NCBI GenBank assembly: GCA_030622125.1
Contig: JAUXGM010000092.1
Span: 1 to 8,321 of the forward strand
Reading direction: 5' to 3'
Length of the DNA stretch: 8,321 nt
Source of the DNA: a bacterium
GTDB taxonomy: Bacteria > AUK180
Shown: positions 170 through 6,933 of the stretch, piece by piece
Position numbering within the stretch: the stretch's first letter is position 1
Layout: each line of letters opens with the position of its first letter
Notes under the pieces: generated by a model
Database searches by the model: none
What the model was told of the DNA's origin: nothing
The model's input: only the letters and a program-made list of their open reading frames with translations
Position numbers and translations under genes: made by a program

Positions 170-733
170 ATGAGGAGAATATTTATTTTGCTATCCATCT
201 TATTGTTTTTTGCCGCTGCATGCAACAAGGGGAAATTTGCCGGTTCTTCCAACGAATCAGGGAAAGCTGCCGGAAAATCCAAATTAACCCGTACTTCACA
301 GGAATTGAAGGAAATGCTTGTTATCCCGGAGGGATATTCCGTTACAAGTGAACTGACAAAAGAGATACGGAATAAGGAATTTTCTGTAAATCTTTATAAC
401 ATTGAGCTGTCAACGGATATTGTTAATGACTCTGTGGTTACAAGTATCAAATATTCAATCAAATTAGTTGATATCGGGGATTCTAATATGTATCCACCGT
501 TAGCGGCACATAAACTTTTCTATAAATTCGGAACAGAAAAAAATAGTGAGATCTTTTTTAAAAAGAAGGACATTGTGGGAAATTGGAATATAATTTATAG
601 TTACAATAAGGTAGAGCGTGACGGACAATTTTCAGCACAGAGCGGAATACTTTTTCTCATATTTAATTTTGAAAATAATGATTTTGAAAAAGCGAAAGAG
701 ATCTTTTTAAAATTATCGGAAGATATAAAATAG
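170..733 (+). CDS. Small predicted lipoprotein of unknown function
   Basis: This 187-residue protein begins with a typical lipoprotein signal peptide: basic MRR, a hydrophobic stretch (residues 4-14) and a lipobox A-A-A-C with the lipidated cysteine at residue 18. The mature part starts with a flexible segment rich in Gly, Ser and Lys (about 19-45), then a compact mixed alpha/beta region with no motif I recognise; the C-terminal 25 residues look helical and charged. The ATG at 170 has no clear Shine-Dalgarno sequence. A GAGGAG lies just inside the gene (172-177) before an in-frame TTG at 188, but that start would remove the basic N-terminus and spoil the signal peptide, so I keep 170. The TAG stop ends on the first base of the SRP RNA closing helix, so transcripts of this gene probably read into the SRP RNA. 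The membrane-anchored location is a confident inference; the function is unknown. Confidence 0.8.
   Translation: MRRIFILLSILLFFAAACNKGKFAGSSNESGKAAGKSKLTRTSQELKEMLVIPEGYSVTSELTKEIRNKEFSVNLYNIELSTDIVNDSVVTSIKYSIKLVDIGDSNMYPPLAAHKLFYKFGTEKNSEIFFKKKDIVGNWNIIYSYNKVERDGQFSAQSGILFLIFNFENNDFEKAKEIFLKLSEDIK
684..713 (+). promoter_or_regulatory. Candidate promoter for SRP RNA/dnaX inside the lipoprotein gene
   Basis: TTGAAA (684-689), an 18-bp spacer and TAAAAT (708-713) give a good sigma70-like match inside the 3' end of the lipoprotein coding region. Predicted initiation near 720 would leave a leader of about a dozen bases before the SRP RNA closing helix at 733, to be trimmed by a nuclease. A second -10-like TATAAA (724-729) could start transcription closer to the RNA 5' end but lacks a convincing -35. 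A strong separate promoter is expected because SRP RNA is needed in large amounts; the assignment is inferred from sequence only. Confidence 0.42.
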
Positions 734-1000
734 GAGGTGTGCTAAGTGGGTGGTTAGCGGTAACCTGTAACCTGCAATCCGCTACAGCAGGACTGAATAC
801 CTGATTGAGGGAAGAAGTTCTTTGAAAACAAATAAAAAGCTGTGTTGAGATCAGGGTCCTATGCTTAGATTCCAGGCAAACCCCGCCAGATCCGGAAGGA
901 AGCAACGGTAAACTATGGGTCCATGCCATTGGATAGCCTTGATGGAGTAGATTTTTACGCGGGATCAAAAAATGGAATTTCGAGGTTAGGGCATACCTCC
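733..1000 (+). ncRNA. ffs: Large bacterial signal recognition particle RNA (Alu-domain type)
   Basis: This is the RNA scaffold of SRP, which binds Ffh and targets membrane and secreted proteins to the translocon. The ends are defined by a 10-bp closing helix, GGAGGTGTGC (733-742) with GCATACCTCC (991-1000), containing one G-U pair. The 5' Alu domain is clear: GGTT/AACC stem (752-755/762-765), the TGTAA U-turn (766-770), CCTGC/GCAGG stem (771-775/787-791), and complementary loops AGCGG (756-760) and CCGCT (779-783) able to form the loop-loop interaction. The long helix 5 shows several paired blocks, such as TTTGA/TCAAA (821-825/965-969) and TAAAAA/TTTTTA (833-838/952-957). The Ffh-binding apical part has the hallmark AGATCCGGAAGGAAGCA (888-904) with its GGAA tetraloop (894-897). 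Its 268 nt matches the roughly 270-nt Bacillus scRNA class rather than the roughly 110-nt E. coli 4.5S RNA. It abuts coding sequence on both sides and precedes dnaX as in Bacillus. Confidence 0.95.
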
Positions 1001-1012
1001 GAGGAATATATG

Positions 1013-2614
1013 ATGTCGGATGGATATACTGTTTTTGCACGCAAGTATAGGGCTCAGAATTTTGATGAAATTATCGGGCAACAGCATGTGGTAAAAACGC
1101 TTAAAAATGCCATTTTATCGGGCAATATAGGACATGCCTATCTTTTTGCCGGACCAAGGGGTGTTGGAAAAACTTCAATGGCAAGAATATTTGCAAAAAG
1201 CTTGAATTGTGAAAAGGGACCGACTATAAATCCTTGCAATCAATGCAACCTCTGTGCAATGATCTCTAAAGGCAATTCTCTGGATGTCGTTGAGATAGAT
1301 GGAGCGTCCCATAGACGAATAGATGATATCAGAGATCTTATCGAACAATTAAAGTATCCTCCCGTTTCAGGAAAAAATAAAAAAAAGATATACATAATTG
1401 ATGAGGTTCATATGCTTACGACAGAAGCATTCAATGCTCTTTTAAAATCGCTTGAAGAGCCTCCGAAATATGTTATATTTATTTTTGCGACAACAGAACC
1501 ATTTAAAGTTCCGCCGACAATTCTATCAAGATGTCAAAGATTTGATTTTAGAAGAATACCATTACAGAAAATATCTTTGAAACTTAAAGAGATCGGTAAG
1601 ATTGAAAATATAAATGCAGCAAACGAAGTTTATTCGTATATAGCAATGCAATCCGAGGGCTCACTCCGTGATGCCGAAGTTATGTTCGACCAGTTGAATT
1701 CTTTTTCAGATGGAAATATAACAATGGAAATCGTACAAAATTTTCTCGGGGTTGTCGGCATTGACTGGATAATGAAGGTAATTAAAAATGTTTTTGAAAA
1801 AAATGCTGCGGCTGCCATCGGTACTATAAATGAGCTTTATAACCAGGGTTTAAACTTACGAGATTTTTTACTTTCCTTTTTAAAGGTATTAAGGGATTTA
1901 GTACTTATTTTTGGAAAATATAGATCAGCTGAAACAATCCTTTACTTTCCAGAAGAAAATTATAAAAAGTATCTTGAACTATTCAAGGACATTGACGCCG
2001 ACCTACTTCTTAGTTTTATGCGTCTCATTGAGAAAACATACAACACCATTAGATACTCCGATTCAGGAAATTTGGAAGTTGAAATTATGGCTGCGGATCT
2101 AATTCAACTCTATGAGATCTATGATCTAAATGAGCTAATAACCTATGCAGAAGCGGCAAAGATAAAACAAACGGTTTATAAATCGGTAAATAGGGCTAAA
2201 ACCGAAGATATTAAAGCAGAAGGCTCTCAATCAATTATTATAAATGATGAGAACTACAATGCCTTTTGTAACTGGGTGAAAGCCAGCAATAAAAATATAT
2301 ATGAAAGATTTTTATCGGATACATTTTTTGACCGTTTTGATAATAATGTCGTTTATATTTATATTGAAGGAATACAAAAATTTTCTTTTCGGGAACGAAA
2401 AGCAGCTGATTGGGAGGAGGTAAATGTTATATTAAGAAAATTCTTCAATGAGGATAAATTAAAAATATCGGTTGATTGGGCACAATCCAAATATACCGAA
2501 GGTGGAAGTCAAAAAAAGGGAATTGCAGATGAGGTTACGAAAACAATTCCCGATATTAAACTTATAAGTGATGCTTTTAACGGTAAAATAACTATTAAAA
2601 GAAAAGAGGAGTAG
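1013..2614 (+). CDS. dnaX: DNA polymerase III subunit gamma/tau (clamp loader ATPase)
   Basis: DnaX is the AAA+ motor subunit of the clamp loader that places the beta sliding clamp on primed DNA and links it to the polymerase. In the 533-residue product I see Walker A GPRGVGKT (47-54), the four zinc cysteines C66, C75, C78 and C81 in the usual C-x8-C-x2-C-x2-C spacing, Walker B DEVH (130-133), sensor 1 ATTEP (159-163), the SRC arginine-finger motif (172-174) and the sensor 2 region GSLRDAE (216-222). Later residues match the helical collar and a weakly conserved C-terminal region. The frame is open back to an ATG at 923, but that lies inside the SRP RNA. The real start is the ATG at 1013 (or the adjacent ATG at 1010), served by GAGG at 1001-1004; family proteins begin near the Y-x-x-F-A-R-K-Y-R motif. 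A possible frameshift site near the 3' end is listed separately. The gene is followed after 3 nt by ebfC. Confidence 0.96.
   Translation: MSDGYTVFARKYRAQNFDEIIGQQHVVKTLKNAILSGNIGHAYLFAGPRGVGKTSMARIFAKSLNCEKGPTINPCNQCNLCAMISKGNSLDVVEIDGASHRRIDDIRDLIEQLKYPPVSGKNKKKIYIIDEVHMLTTEAFNALLKSLEEPPKYVIFIFATTEPFKVPPTILSRCQRFDFRRIPLQKISLKLKEIGKIENINAANEVYSYIAMQSEGSLRDAEVMFDQLNSFSDGNITMEIVQNFLGVVGIDWIMKVIKNVFEKNAAAAIGTINELYNQGLNLRDFLLSFLKVLRDLVLIFGKYRSAETILYFPEENYKKYLELFKDIDADLLLSFMRLIEKTYNTIRYSDSGNLEVEIMAADLIQLYEIYDLNELITYAEAAKIKQTVYKSVNRAKTEDIKAEGSQSIIINDENYNAFCNWVKASNKNIYERFLSDTFFDRFDNNVVYIYIEGIQKFSFRERKAADWEEVNVILRKFFNEDKLKISVDWAQSKYTEGGSQKKGIADEVTKTIPDIKLISDAFNGKITIKRKEE
2500..2551 (+). promoter_or_regulatory. 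Candidate -1 frameshift (or transcript slippage) signal in dnaX
   Basis: Seven A followed by G (2511-2518) contain the heptamer A-AAA-AAG in the correct zero-frame phase (AAA codon at 2513, AAG codon at 2516), the same slippery heptamer used by E. coli dnaX. An SD-like AGGTGG lies just upstream (2500-2505). A perfect 8-bp stem follows directly, GGGAATTG (2518-2525) with CAATTCCC (2544-2551), 18-nt loop. A -1 shift would add Gly-Asn-Cys-Arg and stop at TGA 2530-2532, giving 506 instead of 533 residues. The spacer from heptamer to stem is absent rather than 5-6 nt, and only the short C-terminal tail would be lost, so its function is unproven. Confidence 0.4.
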
Positions 2615-2617
2615 GAT

Positions 2618-2929
2618 ATGGCAAATTTTAATAAAATATTAAAGCAAATGCAGAAATTACAACAGGATTTGGCGGTAAAACAGGAAGAAGTTAAGAAGGA
2701 AGAGGTAACAGGTGAGTCTGCTGGTGGGATGGTCAAGATCACAATGACCTGTGGATTTGAGATTCGATCAATAAACATTGAATCCGAGATCTGGAAAGAA
2801 AGTGATAAAGAAATGATCCTGGATCTGATCGCTGCTGCATTTAATAACGCAACCTCAAAGGCACAGGAGAAAATAAATGAAGGATTGTCCGGATTGACGG
2901 GGGGATTAAATATTCCGGGATTATTTTGA
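2618..2929 (+). CDS. ebfC: YbaB/EbfC family nucleoid-associated DNA-binding protein
   Basis: This 103-residue protein belongs to the YbaB/EbfC family, small dimeric proteins that bind DNA and are counted among nucleoid-associated proteins. The family layout is clear: a charged N-terminal helix rich in Gln, Lys and Glu (about 3-30), a central beta region beginning GGMVKITM, the conserved stretch around SDKEMILDLIAAAFNNA, and the typical C-terminal GGLNIPGLF ending. The length is normal for the family. The start is supported by GAGGAG (2606-2611), which overlaps the last codon of dnaX, with a 6-nt spacing. The gene sits between dnaX and recR, its standard place in many bacteria, and its TGA stop shares its last base with the recR ATG, so translation of the two is probably coupled. 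Confidence 0.95.
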   Translation: MANFNKILKQMQKLQQDLAVKQEEVKKEEVTGESAGGMVKITMTCGFEIRSINIESEIWKESDKEMILDLIAAAFNNATSKAQEKINEGLSGLTGGLNIPGLF

Positions 2930-3522
2930 TGAATAAATTGTTAAAAAAACTTAACGGCAACATAAGAAGTCTTCCATATATTGGAAAGAAAACATCGGAG
3001 CGACTTATTTTTGCTCTTTTAGAAACCGAAAATAAAAAATTAAAAGAAATTGCCGAGATATTAGAACAACTTTCACAAGCAAAAACAGTATGTTCAAACT
3101 GCGGAGTTAAAAGCCTGTCTTCGCCTTGTGAAATATGTAATAATGCCGAAAGGGATAATATCTTATGTATTGTTGAAAATTCAAAAGAGCTTTACAAAAT
3201 GGAATTAGCAGGAATATATAATGGCAAATACCATGTTTTAGATGGTGTAATATCACCGTTCAAAAGTAAAAATTTTGATGAATTAAACATTCAAAACCTT
3301 ATAAAACGAATTGAAAATGAACATATAAAGGAAATAATCATAGCTCTTTCCCCTTTACCCGAAGGAGAAATAACTATTAGATATCTTATAAAATATTTAA
3401 GTGGTATTGATATTAAAATTACAAAAATGGCAGTTGGGATTCCGATTGGTCAGTTCTTAGAAAATGCCGATGAGATCACTTTAAAAAGTGCGTTATCAGG
3501 GAGAATTAATGCAAAGGATTAA
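2929..3522 (+). CDS. recR: Recombination mediator protein RecR
   Basis: RecR works with RecO (and RecF) in the cytoplasm to load RecA on SSB-coated single-stranded DNA during gap repair. The 197-residue product has the N-terminal helix-hairpin-helix (LPYIGKKTSERL, about 15-26), a four-cysteine zinc finger (C55, C58, C67, C70), a Toprim domain from about residue 78 (ILCIVE, then YHVLDGVISP) and the typical C-terminal block GIPIGQFLENADEITL. One Toprim loop reads ALSPLPEGEIT where most RecR proteins have A-T/L-N-P-T-x-E-G-x-x-T, so the usual Asn is Ser; this looks like divergence, not damage. I use the ATG at 2929, overlapping the ebfC stop by one base, rather than the in-frame TTG at 2926. GGGA at 2917-2920 may serve as a weak ribosome binding site. 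The 3' end overlaps the next gene by 14 nt. Confidence 0.96.
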   Translation: MNKLLKKLNGNIRSLPYIGKKTSERLIFALLETENKKLKEIAEILEQLSQAKTVCSNCGVKSLSSPCEICNNAERDNILCIVENSKELYKMELAGIYNGKYHVLDGVISPFKSKNFDELNIQNLIKRIENEHIKEIIIALSPLPEGEITIRYLIKYLSGIDIKITKMAVGIPIGQFLENADEITLKSALSGRINAKD

Positions 3523-5086
3523 AATTATTCTTATTATTTTGATATTTCCTATTCTTGTTAACAGCACCCTATACGATTTAATGGATAATGGAGTAAATAC
3601 TTTTAGTGGAGATTTTTTTTCGATTGTGTTAAAAAATCCTGCTGCAATATCAAGGAACCAGTTAAGAAGATTTTCTTTTACGATGAAAAATCAATTTTCA
3701 ATAAATAATTTCGGGATAACCTTTCCAAAAAAGCGATTTAATATTTCATTGGGCGCATTAAATAAAACCCATTCCCCCTATTACGAAAATATATTTAATA
3801 TTAAATATTCATTAGACAATATGTTGGATATTGGCATTTCTTATTCTATGTTATTTCAAGATATCTCAATGGATATGAAAGCTCTTTATAAAATTAATTT
3901 GGGGTTGATCGCCTATCCTTTTACGAATTTATTTAAGAAAAGTGGAAACCTGAGTAATTTTGTTTTCTCATTTTATACCGATAATATTTTAAAAAATAAT
4001 TGTATTGAACATTATTATCCCATTACTTATGGTGGCGGGATCGCTTTTTTTTATCAACGCCATCTCATTGATATTTTCACAAATGTTGAAAATAAGGATA
4101 AAAATATCTCTTTTGGCTTTGGTATGAGGGCAAAAATAATCAATGATCTTCATCTTTCTTTTGGGATCAGGAAAGATAAGCTCAGCAGCGTAGCATTTGG
4201 ACTTGAATATTTATATAAAGATTCCACTTTTGCAGGCGGGGTAAATATAAACGAAGAAAAACAGTCCTTTATATTTGGGATTAATATTACACCCGGGAGT
4301 AAAAAAAATATTCTGATCAGTGAATATATGTCCACAGGGATCTTTTTCTACAAAAAAAAACAATATGAAAAAGCAATGGAATATTTTAACAAAGCACTTG
4401 GAATCGCTCCGAATAATCCGGATGCAAAACAATTTATTGATATTACAAGGGAAAGGATGCTCAGAGAAAAAGATGGTTTGGTTAATAAGTGGATATTAAA
4501 GATACATTCCTTATTAAAAAAAGAAAAATATGAGCGTGCAGAAAAAGAATTTGCACGATTAAGGGAATTGTATCCTGCTTTCAGAGGTAAGTGGAAAAAA
4601 CTAACCCCGTTATTTATAGATAAAAAGAAATTAAAAAATATAGAAAAAGATACTGAATCCGCTAAGTTTTTGTTATCGTTAAATGAATTAAAATTACTCA
4701 TAAAAAAAGATAAATTGATTGAAGCAAGGAAAAAAATGAGTTTGCAAACAAATTATCCTAAGAAATATGAAAAAAAATTTATATCTGTAAAAAATCTTTT
4801 AACCGAGAAGATAAATAAAAAAGTTAAATCTCTATTCTCTATGATAAAAGATGAAAATTCTAAATCGGCAATTGATATATATAAGGAAATTTTATCTTAC
4901 GATGGAAAAAATATACTTGCAAAAAAAAGAATAATATCGTATTATTTAATTATGGGTGAAAAGTTTTATCGTGACCAGAAGTATAATGAAGCATTATCTG
5001 CATGGCGAGAGGTATTGATCTACGAGCCTCACAATACGAATGCCCTGCTTTATATAGATACTGTAAAAAAAAGGATGAAAAAGTAA
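3509..5086 (+). CDS. Predicted outer-membrane beta-barrel protein with C-terminal TPR repeats
   Basis: The 525-residue product starts with a signal peptide (basic MQRIK, hydrophobic core to about residue 17, likely cleavage near VNS-T at 19-20). Residues about 21-262 are made of short alternating amphipathic strands rich in Phe, Tyr, Gly and Asn, opening with a segment containing KNPAAIS (42-48). This resembles the PorV/PorQ/UPF0164-like outer-membrane barrel group, where a G...NPA motif follows the signal peptide. From about 270 on the protein is helical and Lys-rich with TPR-like units; the clearest are 274-307 (GIFFYKKKQYEKAMEYFNKAL) and 478-511 (GEKFYRDQKYNEALSAWREVL), with degenerate units between. 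The TPR part should face the periplasm. I start at the ATG at 3509 (AGGGAG at 3498-3503), not the in-frame GTG at 3488, because it leaves a clean signal peptide. It overlaps recR by 14 nt and the phosphatase gene by one. The specific role is unknown. Confidence 0.8.
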   Translation: MQRIKIILIILIFPILVNSTLYDLMDNGVNTFSGDFFSIVLKNPAAISRNQLRRFSFTMKNQFSINNFGITFPKKRFNISLGALNKTHSPYYENIFNIKYSLDNMLDIGISYSMLFQDISMDMKALYKINLGLIAYPFTNLFKKSGNLSNFVFSFYTDNILKNNCIEHYYPITYGGGIAFFYQRHLIDIFTNVENKDKNISFGFGMRAKIINDLHLSFGIRKDKLSSVAFGLEYLYKDSTFAGGVNINEEKQSFIFGINITPGSKKNILISEYMSTGIFFYKKKQYEKAMEYFNKALGIAPNNPDAKQFIDITRERMLREKDGLVNKWILKIHSLLKKEKYERAEKEFARLRELYPAFRGKWKKLTPLFIDKKKLKNIEKDTESAKFLLSLNELKLLIKKDKLIEARKKMSLQTNYPKKYEKKFISVKNLLTEKINKKVKSLFSMIKDENSKSAIDIYKEILSYDGKNILAKKRIISYYLIMGEKFYRDQKYNEALSAWREVLIYEPHNTNALLYIDTVKKRMKK

Positions 5087-6588
5087 TGTTTAAGAATTTT
5101 AGTTTCAAATGGAAAATTTTATGTGTAATCTCAGTGATATTGATCTTTGCACTTATCTTGTTCTCTCTATTGGTTAATATATATGAGAAAAATCTGTTAT
5201 TAAAAATTAATGATGAGAAAGGTAGGGTAATTGTAGAAACAATAAAAGGGAATCTTGATCTAATGATGCTTTCAGGAACAAAATTACAATTTTTTGATTT
5301 TCTTAATTCTAAAAAGACTTATGAAATAAGGGATATTTCTATTCTCAACAATGAGAAAAAGCATATCCTTTTTTCAACGGAAAAACATATAGAAGGTTCA
5401 GAAATAAAAAAACCAACCATTGAATTATTACATGATATTAAATCAAAAAAAATCAGTGCGGTCTCTTTTGATAATAATATGACGCGAACTTATTTTATCT
5501 ATCTCGGCAATAGTTTTTTTAAAGAAAACGGTTCTTTTGTTTTAAAGGTAAATTTTTCTCAAAAAAGGATCTATGATTTTATTAATAAGCAGACAAAACA
5601 GATCGTTTTCCTCTCTGTGTTTATCTTGATAATTGGATTTATAGGTAGTTTTTTCTTTGGAACTATTGTAACAAGCCCGATCAAGAAATTAACAACCGGA
5701 ACCTTTGAAATCGGGAATGGAAATCTTGATTATAAGATCAACATTAATTCCAATGATGAGTTTGGAAGTCTTGCAAATTCATTCAATCAAATGGCAGAAA
5801 ATTTGAAATTTGCCCAAAAACAGATCATTGTAAAGGAAATAATGGATCGGGATTTTAAAATTGCTATGGATATACAGAATGCCCTTTTTAAGCAGCAACT
5901 TCCTGAATCAAATGTTCTTGATATTGCAACTCATTATGAGTTTGCAAGGCAGATCGGCGGCGATTACTATGAGGTTTTAAAAGCAAATGATGAGACAACT
6001 GTTTTAGTTGCCGATGTTTCAGGAAAAGGAATTCCCGGTTCTCTAATAATGGTAATGCTTAGAAGCCTTATAAGAGCACAATTTCATAGTGAGCATAATT
6101 TAAAAAAACTAATACTTAAGGTAAATCGGATGTTAATGGAAGATATTACCCCTGGGAAATTTGTTACTTTACTTATTGCCAAGTTCAATGAATCAACAAA
6201 TAAATTAGATATTATAAATGCCGGACATATCCCGCTTTACAAATATATTGCGGGGAAAAATAAAATTATTGAGATCGTTCCAAACGGACTTGGTTTGGGG
6301 TTAGATGCCGGGGTGATATTTGAACAGAATTTAGAATTGGGCTCGGATGAGATGCAGTTAGGAGATATTTATGTTTTTTGCACGGACGGCGTAACGGAAG
6401 CAATGAATAAGAATAGAGAACAGTTTGGAGAGGAAAGGTTAAAAAATGCAGTGGTTAAATATAAGGATCGTGATTCTACAACCATCCTAAAAAATATTAA
6501 AACCGACATAAAAGAATTCTTACAAGGTGAAGAATTTAATGATGATTTTACAATGGTCATTGTTAAGAGAATAAATAAGGAGGCATAA
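5086..6588 (+). CDS. Transmembrane sensor phosphatase: HAMP plus SpoIIE-type PP2C
   Basis: This 500-residue inner-membrane protein has TM1 (about 11-31), an extracytoplasmic region (about 32-171) with no domain I recognise, TM2 (about 172-194), a HAMP linker (about 192-245, TSPIKKL...NDEFGSLANSFNQMAENL), a short coiled linker and a SpoIIE/RsbU-type PP2C domain (about 283-496). The phosphatase motifs are intact: GGDYY (291-295), ADVSGKGIPG (309-318), KFVTLL (358-363), NAGH-x-P (378-383), CTDGVTEA (432-439) and NDDFTMVI (485-492). The likely metal-binding aspartates are D293, D310, D434 and D487. In characterised relatives such as RsbU this domain dephosphorylates a STAS anti-sigma-factor antagonist, and such a gene follows immediately. 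The ATG at 5086 overlaps the previous TAA stop by one base, with AAGGA at 5071-5075. The frame is open further upstream to 5002, but that stretch lies inside the previous gene and lacks protein character. The sensed signal is unknown. Confidence 0.93.
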   Translation: MFKNFSFKWKILCVISVILIFALILFSLLVNIYEKNLLLKINDEKGRVIVETIKGNLDLMMLSGTKLQFFDFLNSKKTYEIRDISILNNEKKHILFSTEKHIEGSEIKKPTIELLHDIKSKKISAVSFDNNMTRTYFIYLGNSFFKENGSFVLKVNFSQKRIYDFINKQTKQIVFLSVFILIIGFIGSFFFGTIVTSPIKKLTTGTFEIGNGNLDYKININSNDEFGSLANSFNQMAENLKFAQKQIIVKEIMDRDFKIAMDIQNALFKQQLPESNVLDIATHYEFARQIGGDYYEVLKANDETTVLVADVSGKGIPGSLIMVMLRSLIRAQFHSEHNLKKLILKVNRMLMEDITPGKFVTLLIAKFNESTNKLDIINAGHIPLYKYIAGKNKIIEIVPNGLGLGLDAGVIFEQNLELGSDEMQLGDIYVFCTDGVTEAMNKNREQFGEERLKNAVVKYKDRDSTTILKNIKTDIKEFLQGEEFNDDFTMVIVKRINKEA

Positions 6589-6933
6589 ATGGCAAACCTT
6601 GAAATTATGGCTGAGGATAAAAATGAAGTTACCGTTTTACATTTAAAAGGCTTTTTAGATGCATACACATTTCAAGATTTTGAGGATAAGTTAAAGGAAC
6701 TTATCAGTGAAGACAGGGTTAAGATCGTAGTGGCTATGGATGAGTTAGATTATATATCATCGGCGGGGCTTGGTGTGTTTATGAGTGTTATCGGTCAAGT
6801 AAGAACAAAAGGCGGCGATATTAAATTAACACAATTGAATTCAAAGGTATATAAAGTTTTTGAATTGCTCGGATTTACAAAACTTTTTCAAACATTTGAC
6901 AATATAGAGGAAGCAGCGGAAAATTTTAAATGA
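6589..6933 (+). CDS. STAS-domain anti-sigma-factor antagonist
   Basis: The 114-residue protein is a single STAS domain of the SpoIIAA/RsbV type. The diagnostic block DYISSAGLGVF (54-64) is present; aligned with SpoIIAA, Ser58 is the expected phosphorylated serine. The preceding strands (VTVLHLKGFLDAYT) and the C-terminal VFELLGFTKLF...FDNIEEA are also typical, and the length is normal. In known systems the unphosphorylated form captures an anti-sigma kinase (or another partner) and releases its target; phosphorylation by the kinase and removal by a PP2C phosphatase set the balance. The upstream gene encodes such a phosphatase, ending directly before this ATG, so they are probably a functional pair. 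AAGGAGG (6577-6583) is one of the strongest ribosome binding sites in the window, suggesting high expression relative to the phosphatase. No kinase or sigma factor gene is visible nearby. Confidence 0.94.
   Translation: MANLEIMAEDKNEVTVLHLKGFLDAYTFQDFEDKLKELISEDRVKIVVAMDELDYISSAGLGVFMSVIGQVRTKGGDIKLTQLNSKVYKVFELLGFTKLFQTFDNIEEAAENFK

Follow-up and report, generated by a model that had tools for sequence, protein, structure and literature searches.

A large bacterial SRP RNA gene fills the space between a small lipoprotein gene and dnaX in the window (the whole stretch of DNA that was analysed, an entire contig of 8321 bases from a genome of 2.08 Mb). The layout is probably best understood as a compact SRP RNA-dnaX-ebfC-recR cluster that is served by transcriptional read-through and RNA processing, and no regulatory link between its members is needed to explain it. 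The four genes lie in this order on one strand (Table 1), and the same holds for four further genomes from the family (G001-G004).

Table 1. Features at and around the junction of the SRP RNA gene and dnaX in the window.
Feature	Position	Strand	Basis
Small lipoprotein ORF, 187 aa, lipobox-like AAAC	170..733	+	ORF; homologues in relatives
Candidate promoter TTGAAA-18-TAAAAT in lipoprotein ORF	684..713	+	10/12 matches, predicted start ~720
Large bacterial SRP RNA, including full closing helix	733..1000	+	RF01854 match, sequence, covariation
Closing helix, 5' strand GGAGGTGTGC	733..742	+	Sequence, predicted fold, covariation
Closing helix, 3' strand GCATACCTCC	991..1000	+	Sequence, predicted fold, covariation
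dnaX Shine-Dalgarno (SD) GAGG	1001..1004	+	Next base after helix base 1000; sequence
dnaX, clamp loader gamma/tau, start ATG 1010 or 1013	1010..2614	+	PF13177 (E = 4.7e-46), PF12169
ebfC/ybaB	2618..2929	+	PF02575
recR (inferred start)	2929..3522	+	PF13662, PF21176

The RNA gene matches the Rfam family RF01854 on the plus strand (positions 737-996; 114.5 bits against a curated score of 60; E = 6.1e-18), and the match covers model positions 1-256 of 256. It is the sole RNA that Rfam reports in the window and the only SRP RNA copy in the genome. Sequence and covariation extend the closing helix by four pairs beyond the Rfam match (733-736 with 997-1000), which upholds the helix ends at 733 and 1000 that an earlier, sequence-only reading of the window had proposed; GGAGG (733-737) is thereby paired with CCTCC (996-1000). 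At the 5' end, G733 is both the first base of the helix and the last base of the lipoprotein stop codon TAG (731-733). At the 3' end, the SD of dnaX directly follows the helix, and the two in-frame ATG codons of dnaX are located 9 or 12 nt past the helix end. The shared stop-codon base, the position of the SD, and the 9-12 nt spacing had all been pointed out in the sequence-only reading, and the sequence bears them out. A dnaX start within the SRP RNA, where the reading frame opens at ATG 923, was rejected, as the relatives have no such start. Elsewhere in the cluster, the recR ATG at 2929 overlaps the ebfC stop codon. The lipoprotein ORF matched no Pfam family.

The same-family set consists of five genomes (the window's genome, G000, and G001-G004), among which DnaX proteins are 54-62 per cent identical. 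All five share the gene order lipoprotein-SRP RNA-dnaX-ebfC-recR-TPR-PP2C, and the four relatives carry lipoprotein homologues of 34-39 per cent identity in the same place. The sequence-only reading had called for a comparison of the junction among related genomes, and this comparison finds the abutment of the SRP RNA gene and dnaX in all four relatives, with the SD starting at the base after the helix in each of the five genomes. In the relatives, a helix end of GGGG/CCCC is followed by GAAAGG, whereas GGGAG/CTTCC and GGAAA/TTTCC are each followed by GAGGAA, and dnaX starts 10-11 nt past the helix. The outer pairs of the helix thus covary (GGAGG/CCTCC, GGGG/CCCC, GGGAG/CTTCC, and GGAAA/TTTCC), and folding likewise predicts a helix of 10-11 bp. 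In the correct register, 95.2 per cent of cells in the outer pairing are paired, with five double changes (four distinct sequences, outside the covariance-model match), in comparison with 27-63 per cent when the partner strand is slid by one to three columns. Because pairing is maintained through base changes, the boundary is more than chance. The lipoprotein stop codon overlaps the first helix base in four of the five genomes (G000, G001, G002, and G004), whereas in G003 the stop codon TAA ends 7 nt upstream of the helix. Since the junction is kept in all five genomes, the family as a whole has conserved the abutment of the SRP RNA gene and dnaX, and it has conserved the stop-codon overlap with one exception.

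Beyond recR, the window encodes a TPR protein, a HAMP/SpoIIE-type phosphatase, and a STAS protein (3488-6933), and genes for TPR and PP2C-type phosphatase proteins follow recR in the four relatives, too (loci L031-L034). Together, the TPR, phosphatase, and STAS genes may constitute a partner-switching module associated with the replication/repair cluster. Near the 3' end of dnaX, an in-frame A AAA AAG heptamer (2510-2520), from which a -1 shift would lead to TGA after four codons, recalls the slippery site of Escherichia coli dnaX. The heptamer is absent from the corresponding place in dnaX of all four relatives and is therefore probably due to chance.

Proximity of the two genes extends well beyond this family. 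We surveyed 97 genomes with large SRP RNA, most of which belong to unrelated families, and found dnaX as the next downstream gene on the same strand in 75 of them. The gap between the Rfam match and the chosen dnaX start has a median of 46 nt (30 nt or less in 24 genomes and 20 nt or less in 11) and ranges from -4 to 327 nt, with start codons picked by a simple rule under which single gap values may be off; the sole negative gap (G032) probably reflects a wrongly picked start. A tRNA gene, nearly always for tRNA-Ser or tRNA-Ala, lies within 300 nt upstream of the SRP RNA gene in 40 of the 97 genomes. A relative from the same class (G005) has tRNA-Ser upstream of the SRP RNA and dnaX approximately 23 nt downstream, a layout that suggests replacement of the tRNA by the lipoprotein gene in the window's family. 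Because the arrangement is common across bacteria, simple gene packing is the default explanation. In a search of genome contigs with the DnaX protein, the matches were only to distant Pelagibacteraceae and one member of Atribacterota, which are of use for comparison.

Plus-strand searches of the window detected no terminator-like site within positions 1-1400, and the stretch from 714 to 1400 contained no promoter-like site on that strand. A -10-like TAnnnT hexamer is missing from the 45 nt that precede the junction in all five family genomes, and within the SRP RNA gene the best promoter PWM scores do not exceed those of shuffled sequences in six genomes (p = 0.48 to 1.0). The sequence-only reading saw no room for a terminator at the junction and held that dnaX mRNA either carries the SRP RNA as its leader or arises by processing; the searches for junction signals agree with it on both points. 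With neither a terminator nor a promoter-like site at the junction, the RNA from which dnaX is expressed probably arises by read-through of the SRP RNA gene, while for a single processed transcript that spans the SRP RNA and dnaX these absences are only suggestive. Alternatively, a promoter within the SRP RNA gene could serve dnaX, and the two genes would be expressed independently. There are precedents: reporter fusions map a dnaX-ebfC promoter of Borrelia burgdorferi just within the end of srp, with a predicted leader of 179 nt (PMC9879097), and the dnaX mRNA of Caulobacter is leaderless (PMC4117421). The mapped Borrelia promoter makes independent transcription a real alternative in other lineages. 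However, the promoter searches described above give no indication of a separate dnaX promoter here, and we consider this explanation unlikely.

Under read-through and processing, the SRP RNA gene would be an internal non-coding cistron. Its transcription would start at a promoter within the 3' end of the lipoprotein gene or come by read-through from farther upstream, and without a terminator to stop it, RNA polymerase would run on into dnaX. Cleavage or trimming would then reduce the SRP RNA to the bounds of its closing helix (approximately 733 to 1000), and dnaX would be translated either from the read-through RNA, with the folded SRP RNA as its leader, or from a downstream piece that has a leader of 9-12 nt and retains the SD. 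Of this scheme, the promoter, the transcription of both genes as one unit, the RNA processing, and the identity of the nuclease are inferences. The candidate promoter at the end of the lipoprotein gene has a p-value of 0.075, and the number of promoter hits in the window is not above that of shuffles. Two relatives from one genus (G001 and G004) carry a strong candidate, TTGACC-18-TATATT, within 3 nt of the same place, and none of 200 shuffles is as good; G002 and G003 have no promoter candidate at the end of the lipoprotein gene. The weakness of the candidate in the window and its lack in two relatives speak against the read-through model.

Processing of the SRP RNA is feasible in this family, because each of the five genomes has RNase III and RNase Y matches above the cut-offs and lacks RNase E/G. 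No RNase J-type match (TIGR00649) was above the cut-off in the same five genomes, and their set of RNA-cutting enzymes is closer to that of Firmicutes than to that of E. coli. In Bacillus subtilis, scRNA is matured by RNase III (PMC3328962), and RNase Y of Staphylococcus aureus favours cleavage 3' of a G within A/U-rich RNA (PMC4608709). An S. aureus RNase Y site near dnaX (22 nt) was rejected as a cut at the SRP RNA junction, since positive values denote downstream positions (PMC4608709).

The sequence-only reading had also raised the idea that SRP RNA maturation and clamp-loader synthesis are linked. In this view, a given read-through RNA would yield SRP RNA or dnaX mRNA but not both, since the 3'-end cut would fall in or before the SD, and SRP RNA maturation would thereby set the level of the clamp loader. 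The immediate succession of helix and SD in all five genomes is in line with this idea, as are the presence of RNase Y together with the absence of RNase E/G and a GAGGAAUAU-like site, which offers a G in A/U-rich RNA of the kind that the S. aureus enzyme prefers. However, the tightness of the junction varies freely across bacteria, as the range of gaps in our survey illustrates, and folding predicts that cutting leaves the accessibility of the SD unaffected. Specifically, the predicted openness of the segment from the helix end to the ATG in the window is 0.43 in uncut RNA that starts at the helix and 0.41 in RNA cut at the helix end, and the corresponding values in the relatives differ by no more than 0.02. 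These near-equal values give no sign of a switch, contrary to the suggestion in the sequence-only reading that a 3'-end cut might expose the ribosome binding site of dnaX. That reading's view of CCTCC as an anti-SD-like element fails as well: the sequence is found in the window only, the helix of the relatives ends in TCCCC, CTTCC, or TTTCC, and therefore only the pairing is under constraint. With CCTCC unconserved and the SD predicted to be about equally accessible with or without the SRP RNA, the junction does not fit the idea of an anti-SD-controlled leader. Masking of the dnaX start codon through pairing with 723-727 was rejected, too, because the paired bases are absent from the relatives. 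Coupling is still conceivable, since a cut a few bases farther on would remove the SD, but on balance we regard competition between the two RNAs for each transcript as quite improbable. The stricter proposal, in which one and the same cut makes both the 3' end of the SRP RNA and the ribosome binding site of dnaX and SRP RNA maturation thereby controls the amount of clamp loader, appears very improbable.

In most of the sampled genomes with large SRP RNA, the SRP RNA gene adjoins dnaX, and the gap is often too short to hold a terminator. The separation of a highly abundant stable RNA from an mRNA of low level is therefore a general question, for which the window's family, with its exact and conserved boundaries, provides a clean test case. 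If coupling were true, it would tie the capacity for protein targeting and membrane-protein export to replication. As the evidence stands, the layout of the SRP RNA gene and dnaX is tidy gene packing.

Given the gene orders already published and the frequency of the arrangement in our survey, the window represents a known and common kind of locus, of which it is a tight member. The order 4.5S-dnaX has been reported in Sinorhizobium meliloti (PMC2573895). The tRNA-SRP RNA-dnaX clusters of our survey resemble the window in their order and their frequently short gap and differ in their upstream tRNA-Ser or tRNA-Ala gene, where the window's family has the lipoprotein gene. The B. burgdorferi locus (tRNA-tRNA-srp-dnaX-ebfC) likewise places the SRP RNA gene immediately before dnaX-ebfC in the same orientation, but it has two tRNA genes upstream, a long gap, and a separate dnaX promoter mapped 166-247 bp before the dnaX start codon (PMC9879097), whereas the window has a lipoprotein gene upstream and no gap. 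In Streptococcus pyogenes, a protein gene also follows the SRP RNA gene, and cells without RNase Y contain read-through RNA carrying 4.5S RNA, although the authors doubt that 4.5S RNA is an RNase Y product; there, the downstream gene is speG rather than dnaX, and independent promoters are predicted (PMC6460267). Packing is even tighter in Pelagibacteraceae. In Ca. P. ubique, 4.5S RNA fills the 144-nt space between pheA and dnaX (PMC2704228), so that, as in the window, the SRP RNA takes up the interval from a protein gene to dnaX. In five Pelagibacteraceae loci of our own search (L037, L041, L043, L045, and L046; approximately 4900-5010), the Rfam match to the SRP RNA reaches or enters the dnaX ATG. 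These loci differ from the window in their small SRP RNA (RF00169), the lack of an SD, and a TATAAT-like sequence just before the SRP RNA, and their SD-less dnaX may fit a leaderless mRNA such as that of Caulobacter.
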